From Inonotus obliquus (lineage: Eukaryota > Basidiomycota > Agaricomycetes > Hymenochaetales > Hymenochaetaceae): a DNA stretch of 64,000 nt. The notes under the pieces were generated by a model. That model had not been told where the DNA came from. It saw only the letters and a program-made list of their open reading frames with translations, and did no database searches. Positions 4,701 to 61,639 of this stretch are shown piece by piece (position 1 is the stretch's first letter; each line of letters starts with the position of its first letter). The position numbers were made by a program, and so were the translations under genes. The stretch spans positions 744,001 through 808,000 of the forward strand of contig JAJHTX010000010.1 of NCBI GenBank assembly GCA_032164295.1, given 5' to 3'.

Positions 4701-7006
4701 AGTCCCATGATTCTCGCGAATGAGTCTCTGCAATCATCCCTCGCCCATTGGATTCCGGACTGCTCCAGCACCGTCGAGTACAGACCATCAATACCAGCGC
4801 CAACTGACTGTACGTTTCCCAGAATATTCTCGAGCATATCCACCGGCTCAGCCGATTCGCGTATCATCCTGATCGCCGTAGACGCCCATACGAAAAGACC
4901 TCCCGCGGCGTCGGAGAGTATGCGGAAGATGTCATCCCATGTCCAGCCATCCGGGATCTGCTGATTGGTCGCATTCATCACTTCCGCGCTGATATAACGC
5001 GCGACATCGCCTTGACTATCCTCAGAGTGGCGGTCAAGCTTGATATGATATATATGACTGGCTGACATCAGTTCCTTCATAATGTCGTCTTCCGGCCTGC
5101 TGGTAACGAGAAGACGGATCTTCGGCGGAAGCCTCGCAAAGTCATTTTTCAGCAATTGTACCAACTCGTCTCGCTTCCCTCTCGGCCCACTCTCATCCAA
5201 CGCATCGAGAACGATAATCACAGGATCGTCTATGATGTCTGCAGCAGCGCGGAGTGGTTCCAATAACAACTTTTCGAACTGTCTTCTCAGCGAATCTCCG
5301 ATGTTATTCTTGTTGTTTTCGATGGCATCGACAATATACGGACGGATGTCATCGCGGAGAGATGCCAGTCGGTGAGCAATATTCTGTATGGCGGAGGTGT
5401 ACTCGTCCTTGCCACGTTCAAAGAACAAATAGGTCGCAGGGCAGAGCTCGTCGTCGCATATGTCCGAAATCGTTACCGCAATAGTACTCTTGCCTGATCC
5501 AGCAGCACCAGTGAGCCATACTACGTTCTTTTCCGCGGCCGAGAATAGTCTTGACCTGATCTGGTTTAAGTGTTCTTTGCGAGTACCATCAAGGCATCGA
5601 TGACGGGCAGACAAGTCGCTTCTCTCCAATAATGTTCGCAACAGTTCCGGTGATGCTGTTAAGAATTGCAGTTCAACCCGGTGCATAAGCTTTGTCATCT
5701 GTCGCATTAATACGCACATGTTTCATCTACTCCTCTAATAGTATTCGAGTCCATGGCTCTATCGAGCTCTGTACCAAGGTCAGCGAAACGAGACGTATAG
5801 TCTTCTATCCTCTGACTGTCCTGGATCTGCAAAATTCGACCTGGAAGGGGAATACGTTCGCTGCTTGAAGGTTATAGGAAATTGAATAGACGTACCAGAA
5901 AATTGGTGAGAGGCGTATTCCTGCACGAATCGAGAGCATTCGATAGTTGTACGAAGCAGTACCTTAATCCTTGGCTTGAGCTTCTCGGTTCCGTCCTTCA
6001 GTCTTCTCGCCCTTTTGATGAAAGTGAATGACTCCTTCATTTTTTCCACCAGTTTTTTTAGCTCCACGTCTGCCTTGAACTGATGCGAAATGACCTGTAA
6101 AAGAATGTCATCCGTGAAAGAATGCGCATAGCAAGAAGAGGCGTACTTTATACAAAACCTTGATCGCCCTCCACGACAATTTAAGCAGTGACTGGAGCTA
6201 TCGGGAGAGATAAGTCCACAAGAACGGCGGTCACAAGTAGAGAGACACGGACTTGTGTAACCTCATCAATAACTTCAACAATGTTATCCAGCGCGCAAAT
6301 AACAGTCCCGACTATACTTAAGGTGGACAGTGCTCCATTCGATGAAGTCTTAATCTGTTCAGCACTCCTCTCGGCTGATGCAACATGGATACTGGCCGCG
6401 TCGATCTGGTCGGACGCAGTCATCCTTTTGAAATGTAGATAAATAGCGCCAGCGGAATTCAGTTCGAATATCAACGGGGCTATTCCAGCGCATCAGCGAC
6501 AGTTTCCATGCCACACTGAAGGCGCACCGTCATCCTTATTAGAATCTTGGAGCAACCTTTCAGCGGTGATGTCAACCCCGCCTATGGTATGATCACCGAA
6601 AGTGAGACTCTTTCCTGATTGCTTAAGACGGATAGAGATTGCGGTAGATGGTTCCAATCGCGAACTGTAAAACGTTGAGCGATTGGCTCGGACTGGAGAA
6701 GAGATAAGTTGTATCTCACAGTGTAAACGTGGTGTTCCATCCGGGCACTCCCTCGGGGTCAATGTTACCCGTCTTATAGATAACTTCACCAATCTTTATC
6801 TGAACATGGTTTGGGGGACTGGTCGAGCTCGTCTGGAAGCCTGTAATACGGACGACTAGAGGAACGTGAGATAGCAGAGCAGGATAGCTCGAGAAGACGG
6901 CTAACCTTGGAGGGAATAGCCTGAGTACATTGACCCAGGCATGATGGGACAGAGTCAAGGACACTGGTGATGGGGAAGATGGAATCCTTCGCTTATATAG
7001 CGACAA
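1756..7006 (-). CDS. NACHT-WD40 STAND NTPase (fungal NLR-like receptor) with N-terminal C2-like region
   Basis: Multi-exon gene read right to left. The N-terminal exon (7006-6720) carries a C2-like strand region containing VQIKIGEVIYKTGNI. Two exons (about 6664-6181 and 6067-5900) encode helical linker sequence. The exon covering 5719-4163 has the NACHT core: Walker A GAAGSGKST, Walker B VIIVLDALDESG and the sensor-like VTSRPEDD. A 49-base intron at 4162-4114 joins it in frame to the last exon, which starts SIHTDISSFIWDAYRLV and carries 14 WD40 repeats, enough for two seven-bladed propellers. Such proteins are thought to sense non-self through the repeats and oligomerise through NACHT; that is family knowledge, not shown here. 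The repeats are highly similar to one another, as in fast-evolving NLR propellers. A 15-residue partial duplication sits between repeats 10 and 11. The link near 5715-5735 needs a 32-base intron or is a frameshift. The start codon is uncertain. Confidence 0.82.
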
Positions 7007-27616: not shown

Positions 27617-28058
27617 TGTTAGGACTTGAACTTTCCCTTTTCTTTCGCTTACTTAATTCTTCATTGGTCATATTCCTTTTTCCGTTCATGCTTACTCATT
27701 CTTATTATTCATCTTGCTTAGTCGCTCTTTACCGGAACGTTCCGTAATATTCTATTCCCACCCTTACTAATATTCTTCTTAGAGTAAATACCTTCCCACG
27801 TCTGGTGTGTATATAAGTAGATAGTCTGACTTACTTGTACCCCGTCTCACTATTCTTCTTACCACCACCATCCCTTAGGTATTTACTCATTGTTTGTACT
27901 AACTTAAATATATCTTCTTACCACCACCATCCCTTAGCCTGCGTGATCGTCTCCGTCGCTGTACAAGTCTTCGACGTTTGAGGCAGCGTACCCTAAGCTC
28001 TGGTGTGAGAGACCCCGACTCCGTTCGAGTACCCCCGAACCCGTCGTTTCGCACAACA
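27617..28058 (+). repeat. 5' LTR of the chromovirus
   Basis: Begins tgttaggacttgaac and ends cgcacaaca. A TATA-like tgtatataagtag lies near 27810. It also holds a pair of short direct repeats (attcttcttaccaccaccat and a second copy). Confidence 0.95.
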
Positions 28059-28474
28059 TAATAGTGAGACCTACGTACCAGGACCGTTCAGCGACCTCTG
28101 AGTTTCCCAGTCCTTGCTGTTCCCTCCTGTGGTCTCCCGTTGACGTTGAGTAACTCCCAACGAACACGAGTTTTCACCAACCCGGTTTTTACCGAGACAA
28201 CAACAACCGGCCCGGAGACTGTTAAAGTTTCCGTGTATTCCCGATCAGTCACAACCCTTTACCCAAAGTCACCGTGGCGCTTATCGTTACCATCTGGTGC
28301 CGAGGGAACGTCATCTACACCAAGGAGTTCCCACACGTTCATAGTGCCCCGGGGTTCTCTATTGTTTTCCCTGCCTGGATCTTCCGCGTTGTCATAAGGC
28401 TTACGGACGGATTGCCGAACAACCTGCGTCAGCGCCTAGATCCCTTACCTGTACCCCCTCCTCGTCGTTAAACG
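28059..28474 (+). other. Leader between the 5' LTR and gag
   Basis: Untranslated leader of the retrotransposon. No tRNA-complementary primer site was identified with confidence. Confidence 0.6.
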
Positions 28475-29788
28475 TTGTCGAGAACTCATCGCCGACGTGC
28501 TTTAATACTAGACGCCGTGGAGAGAGACGTAGACGAGTTATTTGTTCAGACTCAGCCTACGTCGCCTCCGTCCCCTACTCCAACGTCAAGGAGCGACTCA
28601 GACGTATCATCTCTAGAGACTCCTGTATTACGAATGTCCGGAGGACAAGGACAACAACCAATACCACCTCCAGTTCCTCCCCGAGCACCAAGTCCACTGA
28701 TGGCGCAAGGGTTCAATCAGACTCAGATGCAGCAGTTCGCGCAGATGTTTGCGGCTGCTCTAGGACAAGTACAACAACCGCCAGCACCGCCTGCCCCATC
28801 CCCCAAGACTCGTGCGAAGGAACCAAGCGAGTTCAATGGCAGCGACTACAAGGACTTCAAGCGCGAATATACCCTGTGCTTTGAGTCGGACCCCAGGTCG
28901 TTCCCAACAGGCAAGAGCAAGATACTCTTTGTCTTGTCTTACATGAAAGGCGGAGCTGCTGGAACGTGGGCGCAGAACTACGTAGATGCGAACCAAGCGG
29001 CAGGTATCCCGGACACCTGGGCAGCCTTTCAAACGGCTCTAGACAAGTCGTTTGACGATCCAAACAAGAAAGAGAAGGCGATGGCGGAACTTCGACGCCT
29101 AACTCAAGGGAAGAAGACCGCAGACGAGTTCTTCGTCGAGTTCGACATCAGACGTCAGGCAGCTGGTCTTACAGATGCACTGCACAACGACATCCTCATC
29201 GACCGATTGAAGTGGGCGTTGAACCTCGAGGTCGTCAAGGGAGTCATGCGCTCAGCCACCGTCCCTACCACCTATGATGGCTGGAAGGCGAAGGCTATTG
29301 ACGTGGACAGAATCGAACAACAGCTTCGTCAAGTAACGGCGACAAGGTCAGGCCCTCCACGCACAAACTGGCCAACCCAGACACAGACCAAGAACCCGCC
29401 TCAAGTCCAGCAAGCTCTGCAACCTCAGCAGCATCGGCCACAGGTACCTCCCCCTCAGCGCGATCATCAAGGAGTAGGGGCAGGAGTCCATCCAGGAGCC
29501 GGAATCCCAATGGACATCGACAGGGCCAGAAGAAGTTACAAATGCTGGACCTGTGGATCGCCGTCGCATCTCATGGCTAGTTGTCCAAGTAAGGGGCAGA
29601 TAGTACGAGAGGTGATTAGGGCATGGGACCCGGAGACCCGCAGGGCCTTTGCAGACGCACTAGGAGAGCTGAAGGAACGTGACTTCCAAGCGGTCGACGG
29701 AGGACCCGAGGAGCTGCGAGCTACACAAGTAGAGGGGTTGATGGATGAAGAAAGGGGAGAGGAGGATTTTGTCAAGGACCAGGAGTAG
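28475..29788 (+). CDS. gag: Gag-like polyprotein of the chromovirus
   Basis: A 437-residue ORF. The N-terminus is Pro/Ser-rich and disordered. The middle carries the retrotransposon gag core (EFNGSDYKDFKREYTLCF...AAGTWAQNYVD...LRRLTQGKKTADEFFVEFD), which forms the capsid-like shell. Near the C-terminus is one CCHC zinc knuckle, CWTCGSPSHLMASC, the nucleic-acid binding motif. The TAG at 29786-29788 ends it. The pol frame is open from 29749 in the -1 frame, so the two overlap by 40 bases. A run of four T at 29767-29770 is a possible slip point for -1 frameshifting; that is inference. No disruption was seen. Confidence 0.92.
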   Translation: MSRTHRRRALILDAVERDVDELFVQTQPTSPPSPTPTSRSDSDVSSLETPVLRMSGGQGQQPIPPPVPPRAPSPLMAQGFNQTQMQQFAQMFAAALGQVQQPPAPPAPSPKTRAKEPSEFNGSDYKDFKREYTLCFESDPRSFPTGKSKILFVLSYMKGGAAGTWAQNYVDANQAAGIPDTWAAFQTALDKSFDDPNKKEKAMAELRRLTQGKKTADEFFVEFDIRRQAAGLTDALHNDILIDRLKWALNLEVVKGVMRSATVPTTYDGWKAKAIDVDRIEQQLRQVTATRSGPPRTNWPTQTQTKNPPQVQQALQPQQHRPQVPPPQRDHQGVGAGVHPGAGIPMDIDRARRSYKCWTCGSPSHLMASCPSKGQIVREVIRAWDPETRRAFADALGELKERDFQAVDGGPEELRATQVEGLMDEERGEEDFVKDQE

Positions 29789-32700
29789 TCGTCGGGACAA
29801 CTGGTCGACTTTCACAAGATTTCGTTTTGTCGCGCGTATTCCATGACTCATCGTCTGTATACTACCTTAGAGATTTGAAACACGATGACGCTGCACCTTA
29901 TTACGAAATCTTGACCGACGTGATACCAACAGGAGAAGAGGAGGGGCTTACAGAGGATGATGTTGAGGCCTTTGAAGAAGCTTACTTCCGAGCACACCCA
30001 CGGTTTATACGAGGATCCAATGGGCGCCAGTTGGAGATACAAGTGATCCTCTGTACTGTCGACCTACCGAGATATACAGGAGACTTCTTGGAAAAGGCCC
30101 GAGCCCTGGTTGACTCTGGATGTACAGGATCGTGTATTGATGTGGACTTCGTACTCAAGCACGATATACCCCGAACTCGCTACATACGACCTATGATGGT
30201 GTTTAATGCTGATGGAACTCTCAATGAAGGAGGAATGATGACGCATTATGTCGAGTTGGAGATGGTTTTTGGACAATACATTGAATCCATCCGTTTAGCT
30301 GTCACCCGTCTGGCTCACTGCGATGTCTTCCTGGGACATGACTGGCTCACGAAGCATAACCCGGAGATAGACTGGACTACAGGGAAGATCGAGTTCACGC
30401 GATGTCCTACAGGTTGCCGACAAGATCCAAATCCTGAAGCAACGACAATAGTGCATAATCGTGCTATCAAGTCGAATCGAGACTGGCCGATATACCTCAA
30501 CGATTTTGAAGACGTGTTTAGTGAAGAAAGCTTCGAGAACCTTCCTGAACATCGCGTCTGGGATCATGCAATCGATCTGAAACCGGACTTCAAACCTAAC
30601 GACTGCAAGGTCTATCCCCTCAACCCAAAGGAGCAGGAAGTATTGAAAGGCTTTATCGAGGAGAACTTGGCATCAGGACGAATCCGAGAGTCAAAGTCAC
30701 CCATGGCGTCGCCTTTCTTTTTCATCAAGAAGGAAGACAGCTCACTTCGAGCAATCCAAGACTACCGGAAGCTCAACGAGAGAACAGTTAAGAACAAATA
30801 CCCTCTCCCGCTCATTCAGGAACTGGTAGACAAGGTCAAGGATGCAAAGATCTTCACCAAGCTAGACGTACGTTGGGGATACTACAACATACGTATTAGA
30901 GAAGGGGATGAGTGGAAAGCGGCTTTCAGGACAAACCTGGGGTTATTCGAACCAACGGTCATGTTCTTCGGTTTAACTAACGCCCCAGCTACCTTCCAAG
31001 GATTCATGAACGACATCTTCAGGGATTTGATACATGAGGGCAAGATCATCGTTTACCTCGACGACATACTCATCTTCTCCTCCCATATCGACGAACATCG
31101 CCAGCTAGTACGAGAGGTATTCCAGAGACTTCGCGATAACCGCCTGTTCCTGAAGCCGCAGAAGTGTGAATTCGAGGTGGACCAAGTCAAATACCTAGGA
31201 CACGTCATAGGTCAAGGAGAGCTTAAGGTGGACCTGAAGAAGAGTGAGGCAGTTCGGGACTGGCCAGTGCCGAGAAATGTGACGGAATTGCAGAAGGTGC
31301 TGGGTTTTGGGAACTGGTTACGACATTTTGTCAAGGACTATAGTCAAATCGTTAAACCTCTGACGTCTCTGACCGGTAAAGCTGAATGGAGATGGGGAAG
31401 GGAACAACAAGAGGCATTTGAAGGATTAAAGGAGCGCTTATGTAGCCCGCCCGTATTAGCGATACCAAACCACGATCAGCCATATCGAGTAGAAGCCGAT
31501 TCGTCAAACTATGCGACAGGCGCAGTCCTACTACAGCAACAGGAGGATGGAAAATGGAAACCAGTAGCATATCGATCGTCTGCACTTAACGACGCTGAAA
31601 GGAACTACGAGATATACGACAAAGAGATGCTGGCAATCGTTGAAGCACTTCGTGACTGGCGACAATATCTCCTGGGTGCTAAACACCGCTTCGAGGTCTG
31701 GTCAGACCACCTGAACCTCATGTATTTCAAGGAAGCGCACAAGCTTAACTATCGTCAAGCACGCTGGAGAACTGAACTGGCGGAATTCGACTTTGTACTG
31801 GTACACAAGCCTGGGACGTCAATGGGAAAGGCTGATTTACTATCACAGCGGGCAGGGTTCGATGAGGGCAAAGAAGACAACAAGGACATCGTCTTTATCA
31901 AGGATGAGTGGCTAGTTCGAGCCCTTACTGGAGATCTGACGGCATTGCGAGAGAAGATCAGGGAAGCACAAGAAAGCTTGGAGAAGGAGAAGATACCGAA
32001 GGGGGCAATGGAGAAAGGTGGTCTTCTACAGAAGGATGGAAGGATCTTTGTGCCAGATGAAATGCGAGACAAGGTCTTTCAGGTCTGTCATGACTCGCCG
32101 TGGGCAGGGCATCCGGGTTCGTCAAAAACGGTGGAACTGGTCAGGCGTGATTTCTGGTGGCCAACAATGTTTGCAGACGTCAGGAATTACGTGCGAGGAT
32201 GTGACAAGTGCCAACGGACAAAGGCAGTCAGAACAGCGAAACGACGAGTCCTACATCCGAACGAGATACCTGAGGCGCCTTGGCAAGTGGTTACGGTGGA
32301 CCTGATAGGTGAACTACCCGAGTCGAGCGGACATAATGCAATCTGCGTTATAGTTGATCGGTTCAGTAAACAGATGCATGCAATCCCGACAACTACGAAG
32401 TTAACTTCAGAAGGGATGGCAAGAATCTATCGGGATCATGTCTTCAGACTTCATGGGTTACCGCGAAAGATCATCCATGATCGAGGAACGCAATTCGAGG
32501 CAAAAATGATGAAGGAACTGTACAAGTTACTACACATTCAGGGAAATCCCTCGACTGCGTATCACCCTCAAACGGATGGACAGACAGAGCGAGTCAATCA
32601 AGAACTGGAACAATACCTCCGCCTATACGTCAACCACAGGCAATCGGATTGGGTAGACTGGCTTCCTCTTGCAGAATTCGCGTACAACAATAGGGAACAC

Positions 32701-33348
32701 TCAGCGACCAAACTCTCCCCGTTCTTTGTCAACACAGGCATGCATCCAACCGGCTTCACAGACGTTGTGACATCATCTTCCAACTTCTCTGCAGAAGATT
32801 TCGCTAAACACATCAAAGAAGTACACGAGATAGCTCAAAAGAATCTCAAACAAGCGGCGGAAGACATGAAGAGGTTTCATGACAGACATGCAGGAGCATC
32901 AGTGGAATACAAGCGGGGCGATAAGGTTTTCTTAGACGGGCGCAATATCAAGACCACCAGACCGACAAGTAAACTTGAGGACAAGTGGTTTGGACCATAC
33001 GAGGTTATTGAAAAGGTGGGAGCGAGTGCCTACCGCCTCAAACTTCCCCGTTCATGGAAGAAGATACATCCGGTATTCAACGAGATGTTACTTAAACCAG
33101 CAGTCGAACCAGTTTTCGAGTCTCAGAGACACCCGCCGCCTAAACCTCCACTGATTGTCGATGATGAAGAAGAGTATGAAGTCGAAGAGATACTGGACTC
33201 GCGCATCCATCGGCGAAAGCTCCAATTCTTGGTTAAATGGCAAGGATACAAGGACCCGACGTGGCAGCCTGAGGAAGACCTGACGAACGCAGAGGAGGTA
33301 ATCGAGGAGTTTTACGAGAAACATCCCAAAGCACCACGAAAGCCGTAG
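29749..33348 (+). CDS. pol: Pol polyprotein of the chromovirus (protease, RT, RNase H, integrase, chromodomain)
   Basis: Open from 29749 with no ATG near its beginning, so it is probably made as a Gag-Pol fusion by -1 frameshifting. Counting from 29827, the protease LVDSGCTGSC lies near residue 93. Reverse transcriptase has YLDDILIFSS near residue 408, and RNase H begins around VEADSSNYATGAVLLQQ. Integrase has its HHCC finger (HPGSSKTVEL...CDKCQRTK) near 755-800 and the D,D,E core (VDLIGELP, IHDRGTQF, TDGQTERVNQELEQYL). A chromodomain closes the protein (YEVEEILDSRIHRRKLQFLV, then KWQGYKDPTWQPEEDL). Chromodomains of this type direct integration to marked chromatin. All catalytic residues are present. 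Confidence 0.95.
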   Translation, partial: RKGRGGFCQGPGVVVGTTGRLSQDFVLSRVFHDSSSVYYLRDLKHDDAAPYYEILTDVIPTGEEEGLTEDDVEAFEEAYFRAHPRFIRGSNGRQLEIQVILCTVDLPRYTGDFLEKARALVDSGCTGSCIDVDFVLKHDIPRTRYIRPMMVFNADGTLNEGGMMTHYVELEMVFGQYIESIRLAVTRLAHCDVFLGHDWLTKHNPEIDWTTGKIEFTRCPTGCRQDPNPEATTIVHNRAIKSNRDWPIYLNDFEDVFSEESFENLPEHRVWDHAIDLKPDFKPNDCKVYPLNPKEQEVLKGFIEENLASGRIRESKSPMASPFFFIKKEDSSLRAIQDYRKLNERTVKNKYPLPLIQELVDKVKDAKIFTKLDVRWGYYNIRIREGDEWKAAFRTNLGLFEPTVMFFGLTNAPATFQGFMNDIFRDLIHEGKIIVYLDDILIFSSHIDEHRQLVREVFQRLRDNRLFLKPQKCEFEVDQVKYLGHVIGQGELKVDLKKSEAVRDWPVPRNVTELQKVLGFGNWLRHFVKDYSQIVKPLTSLTGKAEWRWGREQQEAFEGLKERLCSPPVLAIPNHDQPYRVEADSSNYATGAVLLQQQEDGKWKPVAYRSSALNDAERNYEIYDKEMLAIVEALRDWRQYLLGAKHRFEVWSDHLNLMYFKEAHKLNYRQARWRTELAEFDFVLVHKPGTSMGKADLLSQRAGFDEGKEDNKDIVFIKDEWLVRALTGDLTALREKIREAQESLEKEKIPKGAMEKGGLLQKDGRIFVPDEMRDKVFQVCHDSPWAGHPGSSKTVELVRRDFWWPTMFADVRNYVRGCDKCQRTKAVRTAKRRVLHPNEIPEAPWQVVTVDLIGELPESSGHNAICVIVDRFSKQMHAIPTTTKLTSEGMARIYRDHVFRLHGLPRKIIHDRGTQFEAKMMKELYKLLHIQGNPSTAYHPQTDGQTERVNQELEQYLRLYVNHRQSDWVDWLPLAEFAYNNREHSATKLSPFFVNTGMHPTGFTDVVTSSSNFSAEDFAKHIKEVHEIAQKNLKQAAEDMKRFHDRHAGASVEYKRGDKVFLDGRNIKTTRPTSKLEDKWFGPYEVIEKVGASAYRLKLPRSWKKIHPVFNEMLLKPAVEPVFESQRHPPPKPPLIVDDEEEYEVEEILDSRIHRRKLQFLVKWQGYKDPTWQPEEDLTNAEEVIEEFYEKHPKAPRKP

Positions 33349-33391
33349 AATCAACCTTGATCGGGACGATCAAGCCTTAAAGGGGGGGTAA

Positions 33392-33833
33392 TGTTAGGAC
33401 TTGAACTTTCCCTTTTCTTTCGCTTACTTAATTCTTCATTGGTCATATTCCTTTTTCCGTTCATGCTTACTCATTCTTATTATTCATCTTGCTTAGTCGC
33501 TCTTTACCGGAACGTTCCGTAATATTCTATTCCCACCCTTACTAATATTCTTCTTAGAGTAAATACCTTCCCACGTCTGGTGTGTATATAAGTAGATAGT
33601 CTGACTTACTTGTACCCCGTCTCACTATTCTTCTTACCACCACCATCCCTTAGGTATTTACTCATTGTTTGTACTAACTTAAATATATCTTCTTACCACC
33701 ACCATCCCTTAGCCTGCGTGATCGTCTCCGTCGCTGTACAAGTCTTCGACGTTTGAGGCAGCGTACCCTAAGCTCTGGTGTGAGAGACCCCGACTCCGTT
33801 CGAGTACCCCCGAACCCGTCGTTTCGCATAACA
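33392..33833 (+). repeat. 3' LTR of the chromovirus
   Basis: 442 bp, the same length as the 5' LTR and almost identical to it. It is preceded by the polypurine tract and followed by the duplicated target gcatt (33834-33838). Confidence 0.95.
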
Positions 33834-33882: not shown

Positions 33883-34370
33883 TGTTAGAAAACGCTCGCC
33901 CTAAGGGACTATACAGTAACCACAATAGGACGGTCTCAGTGTTACGGATTCGGCGATGCTTTTCTAAGAGTTTCCGGAGCCTACTTGGTTTTCACAAGCA
34001 GGGCAGATTCCCAAGTATAATAAGCGTTGCCTCGGACGTTTTCGTTTAACTGATCAAGTCGGGCCTCAACCTCGTTGACAGGCTAGTAGGACAAATACCC
34101 AGCTAAACACAGGTAGGTTGCCGTTCGCAAGCTTCTCTAGTCGGTGGACGACTAATCAATCGTTCCACGCCGTAGAGTAAGAGAGGTTAAGCAGATTAGG
34201 TGGTCTTCAGATTGGAAGCTAGATGCCTAAGAGGACTCGATGTACAAGACGATCGAAAGAAAGATGGGGAGCTACGGTCTAAGTCTACAACTATTTATAC
34301 CTTTTCCTTATGTTGTGGACGGACCACTTCCTACGCTCCGTAGTTCCTACTCTCGATCTGATTCGTTATT

Positions 34371-34664
34371 CTAGCTTCCAAACTCGTCTGGTAATTCCAT
34401 TGTTCTGCTGCGGATTGACTCATCGACTGCGTCCTGTGCAAGGCGATGACTCGGCGTTGACTCATCTTGACTTGAACTGAATTGAAACCTATGCTCGGGG
34501 TCGGCCTTGTGCTGCGCCCTGTGCATAGAGTGAGTCAGTGAGTGAGTCATTGAATGCGTGTTCGTATGCCATTGGTTTTGCATGGCTGCGCCGTAGTTAA
34601 AGTTCGCTTGTCCGCAGTTGCTCGTGCATTTAAGGAATTCCGTCGGGGTTCCGTTGTATAGCAT
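34371..34664 (-). CDS. Overlapping downstream ORF, left arm of palindrome
   Basis: A 97-codon frame overlapping the last 35 bases of the 258-codon ORF in the +1 frame. It contains MTHSLTHSMH from short tgactcac repeats, a Gln/Ser-rich stretch, and ends MELPDEFGS. It may be a frameshift extension of the main ORF or non-coding. The right-arm copy differs by two residues among those compared. Confidence 0.35.
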   Translation of the reverse strand: MLYNGTPTEFLKCTSNCGQANFNYGAAMQNQWHTNTHSMTHSLTHSMHRAQHKADPEHRFQFSSSQDESTPSHRLAQDAVDESIRSRTMELPDEFGS

Positions 34665-35406
34665 CTGGGGCTATGAAGGCTGTGATTTGCTTGTCGCCTC
34701 GGGACTCTTGTTCGGGGCCGTCAAGTGTGATTCGACATCGGATATCATCGTGGGGAAACCAAGGTGGTTTAACGTATGTGCCTATGGTGATGAGTAGCCG
34801 TACACTTCGTCGAGTATCGTTCGAAGGTATTCTCCAGCCTAGGTATAGGTCTCCTTGTAGTCGAATAGCTTTGCAGTATGCCCATAGTTCCCTGAGTGTG
34901 TTTGCAACCCATGCCGCTGTTATTGGTGAGCGGCGGTTCGTAACATAGTCTGCACTGATCTCCACGAATGTGCTTGGGCACTCGAGTGCTAATATGTCGT
35001 GGATTCCTACTATTGTCCAGTGCGTCTTTGGTTGCATGCCTATTGCCGTATCCATTGCTATTGTTGACCTCGTGCGATTTCGAACGACCTCCGGGGGATT
35101 GTGGTATTCTCGATAAGCTGTTGCTCGTTCGCTGGACACATGATATGTTAACATGCCCGTTGCCTCCCGTAGTATTATCTTGTGTAGGTCTTCGATGATC
35201 TGTCGCACTCTTCTGCATTTATAGCAAGCCGTTAGAGGTTGCTGTACTTGCTGCATCGTTTGCGAAGGTTTAGTGTGATCGTCGGGATTAGCGTTGCTAG
35301 CCGATGCTTCTTGATCGTCGGCTTCGGATTGTATTAACCGTGCGTGTTCTTCGCTTCTCACTGTCGATCCTGATCGTCTCCGGCCAGTGAAATTAACCGG
35401 TCCCAT
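34630..35406 (-). CDS. Unrecognised 258-residue protein, left arm of palindrome
   Basis: Starts MGPVNFTGRRRSGSTVRSEE at 35406 and reads outward. The first 60 residues are polar and probably disordered. Then comes a possible metal-binding CYKCRR, a helix ending in HKIILREATG, and a mixed alpha/beta region with HWTIVGIHD, FVEISADYVTN, ITAAWVANTLRELW and YLGWRIPS. No known family was recognised. It differs from the right-arm copy at three residues (I/L, L/P and W/R), while surrounding non-coding sequence has indels, so the ORF looks better preserved than its flanks. A protein at 60707-61477 appears distantly related. Function is unknown. Confidence 0.55.
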   Translation of the reverse strand: MGPVNFTGRRRSGSTVRSEEHARLIQSEADDQEASASNANPDDHTKPSQTMQQVQQPLTACYKCRRVRQIIEDLHKIILREATGMLTYHVSSERATAYREYHNPPEVVRNRTRSTIAMDTAIGMQPKTHWTIVGIHDILALECPSTFVEISADYVTNRRSPITAAWVANTLRELWAYCKAIRLQGDLYLGWRIPSNDTRRSVRLLITIGTYVKPPWFPHDDIRCRITLDGPEQESRGDKQITAFIAPDAIQRNPDGIP

Positions 35407-35466
35407 CCGGGGTAGTTTCGATCGGCGTTCCTAATTGAATCAAAATTTCAGCACAATCCTTTCACT

Positions 35467-35684
35467 CTCTCTTTGTTTTAGCTCTTGACCATCAACTGCT
35501 ATCATCTCTTACTCTTATTGTGACTGTCACACTATTCAATGACCTCAAATAACTCACCTCCCCACAATATTATTAACTTGAACTCTCCACCTGTTACTCC
35601 AAGTAGACACAGAACAAGAATCAGACAAGATTATCATTATGAATTAGAACAAAGCAGTCCTAATAGACATAGAAGACGTACTCC
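35467..35684 (+). other. Central spacer of the palindrome, with a short open start
   Basis: Unique sequence between the two arms. From ATG 35539 a 54-codon frame (MTSNNSPPHNIIN, then an Arg-rich stretch RHRTRIRQDY) runs into the right arm and stops at 35701. It resembles the 5' end of a gene whose remainder is absent. Confidence 0.4.
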
Positions 35685-35744
35685 AGTGAAAGGATTGTGC
35701 TGAAATTTTGATTCGATTAGGAACGTCGATCGAAACTACCCCGG

Positions 35745-36521
35745 ATGGGACCGGTTAATTTCACTGGCCGGAGACGATCAGGATCGACAGTGAGAAGCGA
35801 AGAACACGCACGGTTAATACAATCCGAAGCCGACGATCAAGAAGCATCGGCTAGCAACGCTAATCCCGACGATCACACTAAACCTTCGCAAACGATGCAG
35901 CAAGTACAGCAACCTCTAACGGCTTGCTATAAATGCAGAAGAGTGCGACAGATCATCGAAGACCTACACAAGATAATACTACGGGAGGCAACGGGCATGT
36001 TGACATATCATGTGTCCAGCGAACGAGCAACAGCTTATCGAGAATACCACAATCCCCCGGAGGTCGTTCGAAATCGCACGAGGTCAACAATAGCAATGGA
36101 TACGGCAATAGGCATGCAACCAAAGACGCACTGGACAATAGTAGGAATCCACGACATAATAGCACTCGAGTGCCCAAGCACATTCGTGGAGATCAGTGCA
36201 GACTATGTTACGAACCGCCGCTCACTGATAACAGCGGCATGGGTTGCAAACACACTCAGGGAACTATGGGCATATTGCAAAGCTATTCGACTACAAGGAG
36301 ACCTATACCTAGGCTGGAGAATACCTTCGAACGATACTCGACGAAGTGTACGGCTACTCATCACCATAGGCACATACGTTAAACCACCTTGGTTTCCCCA
36401 CGATGATATCCGATGTCGAATCACACTTGACGGCCCCGAACAAGAGTCCCGAGGCGACAAGCAAATCACAGCCTTCATAGCCCCAGATGCTATACAATGG
36501 AACCCCGACGGAATTCCTTAA
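35745..36521 (+). CDS. Unrecognised 258-residue protein, right arm of palindrome
   Basis: Mirror copy of the left-arm ORF, read outward on the plus strand from ATG 35745 to TAA at 36519-36521. It has the same CYKCRR motif and core. The two genes diverge from a shared centre of about 340 bases, so they would share a promoter region. Downstream the frame shifted by +1 stays open to 36780. A TATAAATA motif lies 330 bases past the stop, inside the outer arm, as it would in an LTR. No domain assignment. Confidence 0.55.
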   Translation: MGPVNFTGRRRSGSTVRSEEHARLIQSEADDQEASASNANPDDHTKPSQTMQQVQQPLTACYKCRRVRQIIEDLHKIILREATGMLTYHVSSERATAYREYHNPPEVVRNRTRSTIAMDTAIGMQPKTHWTIVGIHDIIALECPSTFVEISADYVTNRRSLITAAWVANTLRELWAYCKAIRLQGDLYLGWRIPSNDTRRSVRLLITIGTYVKPPWFPHDDIRCRITLDGPEQESRGDKQITAFIAPDAIQWNPDGIP

Positions 36522-36780
36522 ATGCACGAGCAACTGCGGACAAGCGAACTTTAACTACGGCGCAGCCATGCAAGACCAATGGCATACGAACACGCATTCA
36601 ATGACTCACTCACTGACTCACTCTATGCACAGGGCGCAGCACAAGGCCGACCCCGAGCATAGGTTTCAATTCAGTTCAAGTCAAGATGAGTCAACGCCGA
36701 GTCATCGCCTTGCACAGGGCGCAGTCGATGAGTCAATCCGCAGCAGAACAATGGAATTACCAGACGAGTTTGGAAGCTAG
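36487..36780 (+). CDS. Overlapping downstream ORF, right arm of palindrome
   Basis: Mirror copy of the left-arm 97-codon frame, +1 relative to the main ORF and overlapping it by 35 bases. The main frame ends at CCT TAA A, where a one-base slip would continue into CTT AAA. Coding status unproven. Confidence 0.35.
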   Translation: MLYNGTPTEFLKCTSNCGQANFNYGAAMQDQWHTNTHSMTHSLTHSMHRAQHKADPEHRFQFSSSQDESTPSHRLAQGAVDESIRSRTMELPDEFGS

Positions 36781-37252
36781 AATAACGAATCAGATCGAGA
36801 GTAGGAACTACGGAGCGTAGGAAGTGGTCCGTCCACAACATAAGGAAAAGGTATAAATAGTTGTAGACTTAGACCGTAGCTCCCCATCTTTCTTTCGATC
36901 GTCTTGTACATCGAGTCCTCTTAGGCATCTAGCTTCCAATCTGAAGACCACCTAATCTGCTTAACCTCTCTTACTCTACGGCGTGGAACGATTGATTAGT
37001 CGTCCACCAACTAGGGAAGCTTACGAACGGCAGTCGATACTGTCCTACTAGTCTGTCAACGAGGTTGAGGCCCGACTTGATCAGTTAAACGAAAACGTCC
37101 GAGGCAACGCTTAGATACTTGGGAATCTGCCCTGCTTGTGAAAACCGAGTAGGCTCCGGAAACTCTTAGAAAAGCATCGCCGAACCCGTAACACTGGTCT
37201 CAGTCCTACTGTGGTTACTGTATAGTCCCTTTAGGGCGAGCGTTTTCTAACA

Positions 37253-37761
37253 GAGAGGAATGAGGGGGGGATTTTATAGACAGTGAATAACATGCAAAGG
37301 TAAAGAGGAGCATAGAGAGATGGAAGGGGGCAAAGTAGGTGCTTAGGCCTGGGTGAGCATTGCACCGACTTTGCAGATCATAATTACTATATTTGGTAAG
37401 AGAAAAAGCGCAACAAAAGGCAAAGAGTAGTATTTATTATATTATATAAATATAGTAATTACAGAAGAAAAGTAAAATAATAATACATTTAATATTTACA
37501 GAATTTTCCAGAATTTCACAGGGAGGGAGGGAGGGGAGGGGGAGGGGAGGGGAGGGGAAGGGGGTGGTTGGCATGGGTGAGCCTCATGTGAGACGTGACA
37601 AAATTTGCAAGAAGATTGCAGATCAACTTACCATATGAAGCTTAGGGTGCGGAAATTGAAAGTCCGAGTTTTAGTCATTGTGGCTGTGTCAAAATCGTCG
37701 TTTTCTAGTTCATATTAAGATTATTTTTTTGCCGAAATTTTAAATATCGGCAAGCATATCA
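37253..37761. other. Non-coding, low-complexity flank with G-rich tract
   Basis: AT-rich and G-rich simple sequence. The strand-asymmetric G tract at 37521-37571 is listed separately. No gene recognised. Confidence 0.5.
37521..37571 (+). repeat. G-rich tract, G-quadruplex candidate
   Basis: More than ten runs of three to five G separated by single A (or short) spacers on the plus strand. Confidence 0.8.
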
Positions 37762-54623: not shown

Positions 54624-57600
54624 CTAATATGAATTAAAGTGTGTGCTTCGATCTTTGAAGTCATTGAGGAAGAAAGTGTCGCACTGCTCCAGTACATTAC
54701 TGCTGGTCCATTCCTGAGGAGCGACCCTTCCGAATTGTGGTATAAGGTGTGCACTACGGTATAGATCCGCAATGGGTATTATAGCATACTCCCTGTTTCC
54801 ATCCAAAGCGATCGAGCGAGATACTTTGTACATCCTAAAATTGCTGTCAGGCTGAGGCGCGAACTTTGTAAACCATTCCACATATGCCAGTCTTGTGGGC
54901 ACATGCCCACGTAGGTGCTCATCGTCCATAAATAATTGCTGAAGCCCCCTTTCGTTAAGCGAAAAGATAACCTGCACCTGCGCAACATGAAAAGCTGTGT
55001 ATTTGATTAGCCAGCTGCTTGTCAGTCAGATCATCGACTCACATTGAATCGTGGAGCCTTCGCGAATGCGTACAAGTACTGTGTCGAAGCGCGCCGGAAC
55101 AGTTCTCCCTTGTTTATCAAACCTTGCCGGTCTTGCATGAACGGAATCCACCACGGCCTCGTCCTCGGAATTCATGTTGCGAAACTTGACTCGCTCGAAC
55201 ACATGGACTGAACAGACGATGATAAGTTCGTCCTCTGCGGCCTGCGCAACGTGATTAGGTCGCATGTCAGGCTCTCGCATGCTGACGGCGAAGCGAGCGA
55301 GAGCCTGCTCGAAGTGCTTTGCTCCGTGGTTTTCCTTCAACGTATCAATGTTGCAAGACCCCTTTGGCAACTTTGCAGTCGAGATTTCAAGGTCAGGACA
55401 TATTTCAGGAGAGCGCCAAGGAGGCACATAGGCAGTGGGAAATGCCTGCCACTTGATGCTTTTCTTCAGGTCGAAGACCTTCTCTTTCCGTTCCAGCCAA
55501 CGAGTCATTTGGATTACTTCATCCTTTTTGTTCGTTGCTGCATAAGCATCCTTCGCAAGGTTGATGTGCAGGCGTTCCGTAAATTGTGTGTTGTAATTGT
55601 CCGTCGTTCCTCAAGACATAATGCTCTGCACATAGTGTACCAAGCAATGCATCTTGATGAAATTGAAGTCTTTTCACACCCCTTTGTCAATGAATACTTG
55701 TTTGTTATCGTGAAAGCGGTGTAAGGCGTCGCTCAAAATGTTGAGTGTCTCCCCAGTGTGAATAGGGTACTGCGCAATGTAAACAAAATCTAGCATCGCA
55801 CGCGTCGCACGAACGAGTTGCGCTGTTTTCTGCCTGGTGGACAACCGGAAGTCGACGAGTAAACCCAAAAGAAACTGACAGATTTGGCTATGTTCCGTGC
55901 CGCTCACTCTGGACAGAACAGACAGGCCCATGTGAAAGACACGTATGCTATGATTCGGTGGTATGCGCCTGCAGCGCGCATCCAGTTCTCTGGGTCCGAT
56001 CATGTCAGTTAGCCATTGAATGAGGTGCTTCACGACGCCCTGATGTAGTTGATGAAGGATGTCTGGGGTGATCGTGTCGTAAATGTTGCAGTATGGTAAA
56101 TCAATCCAGAAAGGATGTTGGATCGGTTTGATGCGGTTCACTTTGCACACTTGACCAAACTTCGATGGATCGGCTGAGTCGAGGATATCCATTATATCCA
56201 GTACCTCGTCGAAGTCACGATCATTGTAAACTTCCTCCCAATCCTCGCCGAGCTGGTCGTTCGGACATTCGCACCTTGGACAATCACCTGTGGTTATTCC
56301 GCACATCTGGACCTGCTCCTGGTAATCGATAGCAATCGCGGATAGTATTGTATGGCAGCGGCACTTGCGGCCATTCCCGTCTCTCATGAATGTCCCAGGT
56401 CCCCCAACGTCATTCATGCCGCGAAACATGAATCACAGACATGCGTGTACCAGGTTGAGTAGCATGCGGCGGCGTGCTGATTTGTTAGAAATGTGCTGCA
56501 GCCGGTTCGTTGGAAGGTAAGCCAGTAGCACCTGTGCATGTCGAGATGGCTTCTTGCGGACGTCCTTCGGAATATTGCCGATGGTCAAGTACACCGGGTA
56601 TGCCGTTTTATTTCGGAAAAGGGTGACCTGTGTCTTATCCAATGATATAATGATCGGTACCACCGTACCGCCCGGCCGTCTTCGCTCAATTTCCTTCTGG
56701 ATCGTCGAACTGTAAGTGATAATGTCTGAAAATAATGTAATTAAACGCACTTGCGTGTCCCACCACCATTGACCTGTGTGCATCTCATGGTATACTCGAA
56801 TGCTCCTCTCTCTATCAGCATAGTGCCGCTCCGGTTGCAGAATAAGTTGCGATGCAAACTCCGGTGCTCCAAAAAGCGCCCTTACGCACTCCATGGCATC
56901 ACGACTATATAACTCAACGGATGAGTCCTCCACGCCATCCTCGTCGCACACTAGTATTTCGTGTCGTCGAAACAAAGGACGTCTTGAAGGAATTTGCTTG
57001 TCAATCACGGAGTTCAGCTCCCGTGCTGTCCGAAAAGACAACCCCAGAGCTTCTACTACCTGTCCTTGGTTCAGTATCTCTGTTTACAATATTAGAAATA
57101 CTAGAATACAACTCACTCCTTCGATTCTCAACAATTCATCCAAAGCATTCGACCCCGGGCCTTGAGTTTTTGCCCAACAAGCTAACTCCCAGTCTATTTT
57201 CGACTCAAACGGTGCATAACGACCCACGCCACCACATCTTGCATGCAGGTCCTGTGAGAAGCGCACGTAACCCGCCTGTCCATTCTCTGTATGGTTTCCT
57301 TCGTCATCGTACGATTTACCTGCTTTAGCTCTGCGCATGACGTCGTTGAAGCGCACGATGACTACAGGACAGTATTGCAACCGTCTTTCCGCGGCACGTC
57401 GTTGCACAACTACCTCACGTACTCTCTCCTCCTCCGTGTCACCATCGGACTGTTCTTCATCCGTCCCTCCTTCATTCTCATCGGCAATTGGAGGACCATG
57501 CAATTCGCCGCTATCGATATGCATGACATTACCGTCTGCGGCCTCTGTGTCGATGTCCATCATGTTGTATTCGTCCCCGTACTGATCTGCATTAAGTGCG

Positions 57601-57779
57601 TCCGGTCGTTGTCCGTTGGCTTGGGTAGTTCGACGATGCGCCTCCTGAAGAGCTTGCTGAACGCATGGCAACTCCATTCGACACGGAGAGAATTGAGGGC
57701 TTTCGCGTTGATGACGAAGGATGTCACCAAACCGCCGGCCGCAGCCATGACAAACTCGATGTGCTAAAGTATTTGGCAT
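54624..57779 (-). pseudogene. Plavaka-type (CACTA-like) transposase, inactivated
   Basis: Reads right to left. It begins with MPNTLAHRVCHGCGRRFGD, a C2H2-like finger, and an acidic spacer. Next comes the conserved YAPFESKIDWELACWAK. After a 55-base intron follow LSFRTARELNSVIDKQIPSR, GQWWWDTQ, IISLDKTQVTLFRNKTAYPV and GNIPKDVRKKPSRHAQ. After the first stop come TGDCPRCECPNDQLG, DILHQLHQGVVKHLIQWL and SNVLEQCDTFFLNDFKDR near the end. In-frame TGA codons interrupt it at 56433-56435 and twice between about 55675 and 55605. In at least one case the expected residue is Arg (GV-R-DF), fitting CGA to TGA. It belongs to the DDE transposases widespread in Agaricomycetes; this copy cannot make a full enzyme. 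Confidence 0.85.
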
Positions 57780-58660
57780 GCTCTCGTGTTCTCTTTGAGC
57801 TCGGTCGTGGGCGTGGTTAGTATACCTGCATCGATCGTTAGCTCCGCAATAATATATTCTGTTGCAACACTCACAAAGTGCACAAATTGCGTTCCTTGCG
57901 CTTTTTTCTCCGTATTAGGAATTCCTCTCTCATTTCGCTGTCTCCCTGAGGCCTCGTTCAAGGAGGGACGATATATTCTCCAAGGGATAGCTGCCATATT
58001 CGTTAACAGCAGCTGCATGCGTTCAAGTATTGAACTTGAACGTATTTGCGTTAGACTGCCCAAGAAACCAATGTTACAGAATAAAGCAATACGCACGTTA
58101 TTTACCCCCGACACCATGTTCCGTACAGCACCAAGTAACTGCACCGGTTGCAATTCATCGCCCAGAGACATAAGTGACCATCGAATACAGATTCGTATAG
58201 TTTCGTTCCTCAACTTTGTCCACTCGAGGAGATTACAGGTTATCCATTTGCATTTGCAAGAGACTCCGACCTCGATCAACTTCGATCTCGTTTGTTGTAC
58301 GAGTGTTCGGTTTTGTCTGCAAAGTAGCGCTGCAGGAACTGTAACATCCATGATATGTAATGTTAGCTGTTTGTCGGACAAGCACGCATGGCTTGCGACT
58401 CACTGTCTCTTTGCATCCTCCCTCGTGCTCGGTATTTCTTTGTGTTCCTGCAATCGCCGCAACTGCTGGACGTATCGTTCATGTATTTACGGAATGTCAC
58501 CGGTTCACGACTACGCGACACGGTGAAAGCTCTCTCCGACAACTTTGGGTGCAACGACGGCAACGAGAGAAGCAGGGCTTTACTCTTTTCGTCGACCTTC
58601 GACAAACCTAATGAACGCATAACGAACTTATGGAGCATCGCTCACCATCTCTTGCCAGTT
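57780..58660 (-). other. Coding-like segment with intron signals, not resolved
   Basis: On the minus strand three good intron patterns occur: GTGAGTCGC...CAGCTAAC...TTACAG, GTGCGT...GTCTAACGC...CAAG and GTGAGTG...GAGCTAACG...GCAG. Between them are open stretches such as HERYVQQLRRLQEHKEIPST and EASGRQRNERGIPNTEKKAQ. This suggests a minus-strand gene or gene remnant upstream of the Plavaka transposase, but no family was recognised and the reading frame was not closed. Confidence 0.3.
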
Positions 58661-59878: not shown

Positions 59879-60706
59879 CAGTTATCTGCACGGAATCTGT
59901 AGCGACTAACCACTTGTACTCGCATCATGCTTGTGTCCACCTCTTTGACTTGGAAGACACAAGATCCAGTGACGGAAGCCGGCCACGCGAAACAAAACTT
60001 TGCGTCCCATTGTGCCGCTTTGCATTTCCCATGGCTACTTGACCGCTTCTACGTCTTGTTTATCTCCGTGGAGGGTTCGTTGATTCTTGATCGACGGACC
60101 AATCTGGCTAATTCCTCGGTTTGAGGGGTTAATCCAAATTCTACAATACTGGTTATGGAATTGCTAATCACCTTAGTGGACTGTGTAGCTGATCCGATCT
60201 GAAACAACTAGCAACTAACTAATATTGCAGTTGAACCTGATACTATAATCGTACAGTAGTAAGTCGGCGTGCAGACGCGATTGTTATACTGATTGTTATT
60301 CACGATAAGGGAATACCGGGAATCGCACTACGTTGTGAGTAGCTCGTACCGTGCAGACAATAGGGAGAACAATCTAGTTGCAATCCGTATTTTTAGCTTT
60401 ACTTCGATTTCACACAATCGGTTTAGTTCAGCCGCGTCGCTACTGGTAATCTACTGGCTCGCAAGTAATTGATGTTACGATTTAACTTAGGGACTTATGG
60501 TAGGGTCCCTCGACTTGGATTAAACTGCTAGGTCGGCTCTACGATGGCCTCCTTATATACTAATTTACATGTGTGACGTTACTACCTTGTTACTTACTGT
60601 TTATGGTATTTATCTGTTTCTTCCTCTATGATACCTGGTCCGTGCTTTCTCTTTACCTCCTTCCTCATTTCATTACCTCTGTGTTACTAGCCTCTCTTTG
60701 ATTAGT
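59879..60706. other. Non-coding or decayed, 3' flank of the ORF at 60.7 kb
   Basis: On the minus strand a TATA-like GTATATAAGG lies near 60558, about 150 bases past the stop of the next ORF, a layout similar to that in the palindrome arms. Terminal TGTTAG was searched for and not found. Confidence 0.35.
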
Positions 60707-61477
60707 TTAGTGCAGTGGGCGGTACCATCTTGTAGATAGGTTTGATTCTCGTATAGGTAACGGCACTTGATCTAATTCAGCTATTCTAGGTAATTGCTGA
60801 GTCATCTGTCCTTGTATTTCGGGTCTCGTTGGTATCGGTAGGATCGGTCGTGGTACAGTCAGCCAGTTTCGAATAGTTTGCACTCGTGTATATCCTGGCG
60901 TTGTCCTGGCGCGTTGTAGGGTTATCCCTTGTACTCCTTGTAGGTGTATTACTCCGCCGTACTGTTCTACCTTTATTTCCATTATGGTATATCCATATGG
61001 TAATCCTCGACTTATGTAATTCATTATCCAATGCCCCCAAGCATATGCAGTTCTCTCATTCGTTCCGGCTTGGTCTCGCTTGTAGGCAATGTCAACATCT
61101 ACTATAGCTGCGTCGCATCGTTCGTGTCTTCCTTCCTGTGCTACGTTTCGTATTCCGATCATCATTACAAAGTGTCCGGCGTCGTAGGATAATACTCGTA
61201 TCTCCCTTTCATAAGCCTTTTGCATTTGTTGGTTAGGGTCGTAGGTTAGTTCTACAAATCGACGTCGTATCATTATGTCGGCTTGTCCGTTCATTATGTC
61301 TCCGTACGTGATCTCTCTGATTAATTCTCGCATTAGTCCTCCAGCTAGTTCTTTAGCTGGGCGGCACGTGTTGCAACATCGTAGTATATTGCTTCGCGGT
61401 GTCGGGGGAACGATGGGCTGTTCTAGTACTTGTATTACTGCCGCTAACCGCTCTTGTATCCAACGTAGGACGCTCAT
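60707..61477 (-). CDS. Unrecognised 256-residue protein, possible distant relative of the palindrome ORF
   Basis: A single open frame starting MSVLRWIQERLAAVIQVLEQ. Points shared in order with the 258-residue palindrome protein are: CNTCR (CYKCR there); LMRELIREIT (LHKIILREAT); HFVMMIGIRN (HWTIVGIHD); AAIVDVDIAYKRD (FVEISADYVTNR); TAYAWGHWIMNYI (ITAAWVANTLREL). Length and layout agree, including a TATA-like box downstream of the stop. Identity is low, so homology is inference from pattern order. On the minus strand, TGTTAGAAAGG lies at about 61522, just upstream of the start codon, recalling the TGTTAGAAAA end of the palindrome. Function unknown. Confidence 0.45.
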   Translation of the reverse strand: MSVLRWIQERLAAVIQVLEQPIVPPTPRSNILRCCNTCRPAKELAGGLMRELIREITYGDIMNGQADIMIRRRFVELTYDPNQQMQKAYEREIRVLSYDAGHFVMMIGIRNVAQEGRHERCDAAIVDVDIAYKRDQAGTNERTAYAWGHWIMNYISRGLPYGYTIMEIKVEQYGGVIHLQGVQGITLQRARTTPGYTRVQTIRNWLTVPRPILPIPTRPEIQGQMTQQLPRIAELDQVPLPIRESNLSTRWYRPLH

Positions 61478-61639
61478 AGTTATTGGCTTATTAATGATGG
61501 ATAATACTACCTTTCTAACAATAAGGAGAACTTTGATCGTCGTCTGTTCAACCGCAAGCGAAACAAACGTGAAAACAAAACGGTCGTAACCGACTGTGCC
61601 AAAAGAAAATTAGCCCGGTGAAGAGAACTACGTGCAGCT

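Follow-up and report, generated by a model that had tools for sequence, protein, structure and literature searches.

Two head-to-head solo long terminal repeats with a probable U3-encoded accessory gene form a palindrome in the genome of Inonotus obliquus

Results

The arms of the palindrome are long terminal repeats

The analysis concerned 64,000 nucleotides of the Inonotus obliquus genome (positions 744,001 to 808,000 of contig JAJHTX010000010.1, assembly GCA_032164295.1), referred to below as the window. A preliminary description, made from the letters of this DNA, had pointed to a large palindromic element at positions 33883-37252. We find that this palindrome very probably consists of two solo long terminal repeats (LTRs) of a chromodomain Ty3/Gypsy retrotransposon, which stand head to head, have recombined with each other and carry a probable accessory gene under selection in their unique 3′ (U3) part. 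The palindromic arms, the duplicated outward-directed open reading frame (ORF) of 258 codons and the three residue differences between its two copies are all present in the sequence. The inverted arms at 34119-35466 and 35685-37032 (1348 nt) are 99% identical, and shorter blocks extend outward to 33883 and 37252. When the limits were set against other copies of the arm, the arms measured 1582 and 1566 bp and the centre 222 bp rather than the 218 bp given earlier. Both ends of each arm have the LTR form TG...CA, with TGTTAG and TGAAAGG as terminal motifs, and the outer flanks read TTAAG and GAGAG, as had been claimed.

The arm was searched against the genome of the fungus (36.07 Mb, 30 contigs; 40 of 201 candidates scored). 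The 42 matches comprised the window, 39 others at 97-98% identity, each covering at least 1555 of the 1568 query bases, and two partial ones. A 301-bp query with the centre (40 of 187 candidates scored) matched in full only at its own place, the other 80 rows being due to the LTR ends in the query. The arm, with its many matches, is thus a repeat dispersed in the genome, and the palindrome, whose centre has a single full match, is no unit. The 49-aa frame of the centre likewise has a single place in the genome; with one full-length place for this frame and one among the 40 candidates scored at the DNA level, membership of the centre in a repeat or gene family was rejected.

On C12, C13 and C6 two copies of the arm stand in direct orientation at a spacing of about 12.39 kb, and on C3 at one of 12.35 kb. 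Between the LTRs of the C13 copy lie gag with a CCHC knuckle, protease, reverse transcriptase (RT), RNaseH and integrase, and then a frame after pol with SH3_Tf2-1 and a chromodomain (PF00385, E 1.3e-11, above the cut-off). Direct LTRs with TG...CA ends, a 5-bp target-site duplication (TSD) and the order gag, protease, RT-RNaseH, integrase in this copy identify a Ty3/Gypsy element, and the chromodomain after integrase identifies a chromovirus. The best match of its pol reached 72%, and the nearest named matches, from Sanghuangporus, were 61-66% identical.

The 258-aa ORF has 147 full-length matches in the genome, against 18 places (one partial) for a 338-aa ORF and 18 for a 254-aa ORF of the internal region; most LTRs are therefore solo. 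Single-arm copies, for which the preliminary description had recommended a search, carry their own 5-bp duplications, and the duplication is exact in 12 of the 14 solo-like LTRs with readable flanks. The LTR copies are young, with a median pairwise divergence of 0.0252. Stops are absent from 115 of the 147 ORF copies. The remaining 32 contain TGA only (30 copies), TGA and TAG (one) or TAG only (one), a predominance of TGA that would fit decay at CpG.

Based on these data we regard it as nearly certain that both arms are solo LTRs. The preliminary description had offered a DNA transposon in which the 1.57-kb arms would be terminal inverted repeats encoding a novel protein, a reading with which the inverted arms, the mirrored ends and the lack of pol inside would agree. 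It is hardly conceivable now, because the arm also occurs singly, with a TSD to itself, and as the directly repeated LTR of an element with gag and pol. The centre matched in full only at its own place, each of the two other closest pairs in head-to-head orientation has two separate TSDs, the arms are too different for the two ends of a young unit, and the palindrome was not found to move as one unit with one TSD. A novel transposon type was not borne out either, as the arm is part of an element with gag and pol, the very observation that the preliminary description had named as contrary to its proposal. Its other candidate, a head-to-head dimer of LTR-type elements, came close, except that the arms are two solo LTRs.

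The arms were inserted separately and recombined

The two LTRs of five full copies differ from each other at 0, 0, 1, 1 and 2 of about 1580 sites (one pair also has 6 gap columns), whereas 28 of 1564 sites and a further 20 gap columns distinguish the arms. The arms are therefore separate insertions, and an origin of both from a single element, as its LTR pair, or from a hairpin product was rejected. The indels noted earlier in the outer non-coding segments were confirmed; they fall in U5 and reflect two subtypes of this part within the family. The same observations bear on the assembly. Palindromes are a known hazard of assembly, and an arm read back onto itself could give such a structure, but the differing sites and gap columns, the two U5 subtypes and the unique 222-bp centre between the arms make a fold-back exceedingly unlikely.

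An alignment of 39 LTR copies of at least 1400 bases was assembled from 49 pieces, ten shorter ones being dropped. Within LTR positions 1-1340 each arm has the other as its nearest copy, with 13 differences (next 19 and 24), and four alleles are private to the two, being absent from the remaining 37 copies. More private alleles (13 and 8) are shared by just two pairs, each of which is the pair of LTRs around one internal region. Over positions 1201-1464, where the arms belong to different U5 subtypes, the arm pair ranks 331 of 741. This contrast demonstrated that U3 was homogenised between the arms. The preliminary description had suggested either constraint or conversion for the coding part. 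Both seem to have acted: the ORF is constrained throughout the family, and the similarity of the arms is most readily accounted for by conversion or crossover that took in most of U3 and not the ORF only.

Read in the sense of the LTR, the flanks are GAGAG/CTTAA for the left arm and TCCAG/GAGAG for the right arm. Flipping the centre places GAGAG on both sides of the right LTR and does not restore the other duplication. An inversion that is clear on both sides was found on C6 (C6:80576-104260), where an LTR at C6:102678 and a full element at C6:80576-94544 have the flanks GGTAT/GGTGT and GGTGT/GGTAT. There the two halves of the target LTR are now inverted and separated, and the TSDs are reciprocally swapped. 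This case demonstrated that recombination between inverted LTRs flips the intervening DNA in this genome. On balance, we favour an inversion of the centre by recombination between the arms.

Several observations weigh against this history of the arms. The second half of the inversion signature is absent (CTTAA versus TCCAG), so that one LTR needs an additional event. GAGAG/CTCTC is simple sequence, and the chance of an exact 5-bp match in four comparisons, about 0.004 with uniform bases, is higher in such DNA. Over positions 1-1340, moreover, 24 of the 741 pairs are closer than the arms. A less likely, though by no means negligible, alternative is that two solo LTRs lost their TSDs through recombination with other copies or small deletions, the centre never having been inverted and the GAGAG/CTCTC match being due to chance. 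That only one of the two duplications fits a flip agrees with it, and recombination among dispersed copies is expected given so many LTRs. On the other side stand the exact TSDs of nearly all solo-like LTRs, the sole other exception belonging to the swapped-TSD inversion, and the shared private alleles, by which the arms did recombine with each other.

The history we prefer, which includes the inversion, would begin with two insertions of one high-copy, self-priming chromodomain Ty3/Gypsy element in head-to-head orientation, separated by about 220 bp. The internal region of each insertion would then have been lost, presumably by LTR-LTR recombination. The two inverted LTRs would next have recombined with homogenisation of their U3 parts, which the shared private alleles show, and the centre would probably have flipped in that recombination, splitting one target duplication between the arms.

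The three closest neighbouring pairs of LTR ORFs (C10, C6 and C3; n=3) share the head-to-head arrangement; their centres measure 222, 279 and 281 bp. Read by eye, the flanks show two intact 5-bp duplications for the pair at C6:651820/652989 and likewise for that at C3:2773327/2774498, so that both are double insertions; the C3 pair sits within an LTR of the second family described below. Targeting to pol III genes as the cause of such pairs was rejected: no tRNA was found in nine loci or the window by ARAGORN (bacterial settings, which intron-bearing tRNAs could escape), and no Rfam match was found in seven loci or the window.

Promoter and self-primer

The outer segment of the arm had been described as bearing a TATA box. 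The box is present, and we read the segment as core promoter plus R-U5 of an LTR. The sequence ATCTTTCTTTCGATCG starts 34 bp past the first base of the TATAAATA of the LTR. Directly after the 5′ LTR of full copies stands TT followed by CGATCGAAAGAAAGAT, which is a 16/16 complement of ATCTTTCTTTCGATCG. This junction of LTR and primer-binding site (PBS) was found in six loci (five distinct places), the C8 copy having one base altered beside the LTR. The polypurine tract GGAGGGGGGCGAG adjoins the 3′ LTR in 17 loci (13 places). In the predicted fold of the leader exactly the 16-bp helix closes a branched loop; the total energy is unremarkable (z -1.05). The PBS thus complements the 5′ end of the transcript, whose start is predicted from the TATA box only. 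These features indicate that the element would carry a self-primer of the Tf1 type.

The U3 ORF occupies LTR positions 59-835, and R is predicted to begin at 1200. Because the promoter lies downstream of the ORF, the 5′-LTR transcript of an intact element should include only the copy in the 3′ LTR. The protein would be read from that copy, either on the 3′ end of the genomic RNA or through a subgenomic or spliced transcript, and is very likely maintained by selection in the replicating lineage.

The U3 ORF shows the substitution pattern of a selected gene

Substitutions in the U3 ORF were counted in 34 of the 39 aligned copies (five partner copies were omitted), and the neutral expectation was taken from the mutation spectrum seen in the LTR outside the ORF. 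There were 69 nonsynonymous or stop-changing and 61 synonymous sites, where 30.3% synonymous were expected. The ratio of nonsynonymous to synonymous changes (N/S) was therefore 0.49 of neutral (p 7.8e-5), and 0.42 (p 0.0021) for alleles common to at least two copies. The other sense frames of the ORF gave 1.10 (+2) and 1.45 (+3), and the three frames of the non-coding LTR part gave 1.01, 1.13 and 0.90. Two results do not sit well with a selected gene. The reverse frames of the ORF gave 1.16, 0.64 (p 0.014) and 1.58 (p 0.03); because of the last two values the p-values for the ORF are approximate. In addition, the structure model of the 258-aa protein was unusable (mean pLDDT, the predicted local confidence score, 37.8).

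We also considered that the ORF is not a gene but is open by chance or recency, with the constraint coming from regulatory DNA. The youth of the copies and the failure to find a homologue would suit this explanation. It is improbable given that the synonymous bias is found in the coding frame and not in the other two sense frames or the non-coding part, and that two further LTR families retain an ORF of similar length and place at 47% identity between them, the differences falling 104/68/148 by codon position (see below). Judged from the substitution pattern, the 258-aa U3 ORF is very likely a selected gene, presumably with an accessory role.

No relative of the 258-aa protein was found among 238 candidates, and none of 20 viral-contig stretches was confirmed. 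Neither it nor the 338-aa and 254-aa proteins had a match above the curated cut-off in Pfam or NCBIfam, and PHROGs gave only weak ones (best E 0.03). Derivation of the U3 ORF from the 338-aa ORF or from gag was rejected for want of similarity. From its place and a CxxC motif one might guess at a small nucleic-acid-binding accessory or regulatory factor, a role we consider doubtful.

Other ORFs of the element

The 338-aa and 254-aa ORFs follow pol and precede the 3′ LTR. Control values of N/S, taken from frames of this element, were 0.11 for the 338-aa ORF, 0.13 for the chromodomain frame, 0.17 for pol, 0.28 for gag and 0.31 for the 254-aa ORF, each calculated with its own spectrum and from few, partly overlapping copies. 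With values of 0.11 and 0.31, both orphan ORFs after pol are thus also selected. The 338-aa ORF had no relatives among 630 candidates; a viral-contig match (29%) was judged by eye to be due to chance, being a short ORF with one shared motif and phage-like neighbouring ORFs. About 85 bp before the two orphan ORFs there are TATA-like stretches (L035:4380-4387 and 5821-5828), perhaps internal promoters. Ahead of gag an open frame of 265-301 codons is present in 17 copies; among these, one contains a stop and one has a much longer frame. This frame (L034:6884-7681) looks coiled-coil-like by eye and has no ATG in the C13 copy.

A second and a probable third LTR family with U3 ORFs

The window also contains a solo LTR-like repeat of a second family, of 1464 bp, with an ORF of 256 aa within the open frame 60707-61609 (-). 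Borders alike within about 10 bases were seen in 39 other genome matches of this repeat (40 of 115 candidates scored); the copy in the window has no matching 5-bp flanks (CGTCT vs ATAAG). The encoded protein has 125 genome matches, 63 of them at 73-100% identity over at least 256 residues (hand count). Among these 63 there are 12 same-strand pairs with a spacing of 9810-9878 bp, as expected of LTR pairs. A third group is mostly 41-49% identical to the second-family protein and includes one pair 9955 bp apart; its member L056 provides the 47% identity and the codon-position counts given above. Borders and spacing indicate that the second family, and probably the third, are retrotransposon LTRs. 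Their U3 ORFs resemble that of the first family in length and place.

In a comparison of the first family with the other two, hhalign gave 27.7 over 26 residues against a maximum of 21.5 in 60 shuffles. Pairwise z values ranged from -0.5 to 1.65 and did not exceed the 1.78 and 1.87 attained by the gag and chromodomain controls. A CxxCR stretch alone suggests kinship, and homology is left unproven. The profile of the second and third families matched nothing in PDB below E 0.69, and none of 28 viral-contig stretches was confirmed. More than 100 open U3 gene copies are present in the genome because every solo LTR retains the gene. It is conceivable, if rather unlikely, that U3 accessory proteins are an old shared trait of one group of fungal chromoviruses, descended from one CxxC-bearing ancestor and now too diverged for pairwise detection, and that the open copies may act in trans. 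If so, action of these copies on the element might take the form of copy-number control or anti-silencing.

Features of the window

Coordinates are collected in Table 1. Another chromodomain Ty3/Gypsy element, with 442-bp LTRs and the 5-bp TSD GCATT on both sides, occupies 27617-33833 and ends 49 bp left of the palindrome. Elsewhere, the frames at 1756-5722 (-) resemble a NACHT/WD40-repeat gene, and the open frames at 55674-57914 (-) a Plavaka/KDZ-type DNA transposase.

Table 1. Positions of the palindrome components and of the second-family repeat in the window
Feature	Position	Strand	Remarks
Left arm, solo LTR, 1582 bp	33883-35464	-	Sense TGAAAGG...CTAACA on - strand
Self-primer ATCTTTCTTTCGATCG, left LTR	34250-34265	-	
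TATAAATA, left LTR	34292-34299	-	
258-aa U3 ORF, left LTR	34630-35406	-	From LTR position 59
Centre, 222 bp	35465-35686	.	Probably inverted; no second full-length genome match
Right arm, solo LTR, 1566 bp	35687-37252	+	Same family as left arm, other U5 subtype
258-aa U3 ORF, right LTR	35745-36521	+	
TATAAATA, right LTR	36852-36859	+	
Predicted R start and self-primer ATCTTTCTTTCGATCG, right LTR	36886-36901	+	Complementary to PBS of full copies
GAGAG	37253-37257	+	Partner CTCTC (+ strand) at 35465-35469, adjoining left arm
Solo LTR-like repeat, second family, 1464 bp	60057-61520	-	LTR ends
256-aa U3 ORF, second family	60707-61477	-	Repeat positions 44-814 with stop; TATATAA at 962

Discussion

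According to excerpts of two reports (PMC4600332, PMC10085805), Tf1, Tj1 and the Tf1/sushi group are self-priming, their PBS pairing with the 5′ end of the transcript that the element itself produces. The element described here shares with the Tf1/sushi chromoviruses Tf1 and Tj1 the order protease-RT-RNaseH-integrase, SH3_Tf2-1, the chromodomain, the 5-bp TSD and the self-complementary PBS; this likeness is one of features. It differs from Tf1 and Tj1 in the 1.58-kb LTR with a U3 gene, the two orphan ORFs after pol, the pre-gag frame and an LTR spacing of about 12.4 kb.

In retroviruses LTRs are ordinarily non-coding, and sag of mouse mammary tumour virus (MMTV) is given as an exception in PMC4667437. 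The same text describes sag as a U3 gene that is kept in solo LTRs and is under purifying selection. The arrangement here, with a gene within U3 that the element's transcript should include only through the 3′ LTR, is the same, whereas host, element class and protein are different. The 258-aa protein had no Pfam match at E <= 1, and no direct comparison with sag was made; nothing suggests a common origin with sag or a superantigen role. LTR retrotransposons of plants and bdelloid rotifers carry extra ORFs besides gag and pol (excerpts of PMC7264820 and PMC5408684). In these excerpts the extra ORFs follow pol, ahead of the 3′ LTR, or stand elsewhere in the internal region. The 338-aa and 254-aa ORFs have the former position, whereas the 258-aa ORF lies inside the LTR. 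Among the open-access matches listed, mostly without subscription literature and represented by excerpts (including PMC3248453, PMC7264820, PMC2864245 and PMC5408684), we met no LTR retrotransposon whose LTR encloses an entire ORF. MMTV sag is the one clear precedent for a U3 gene that we met in these sources.

The palindrome itself is ordinary in kind, and the unusual part is a U3-encoded protein, apparently under selection, in a fungal chromovirus that would be self-priming. The palindrome is an instance of homogenisation between inverted solo LTRs, and the C6 locus one of inversion of the DNA between LTRs. A selected gene in U3 means that a solo LTR may itself be a copy of a gene, and that proteins can be overlooked where LTRs are annotated as regulatory DNA only. 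A like layout appears in one further LTR family or more of this genome, and I. obliquus offers a fungal system in which the function of U3 genes could be tested.

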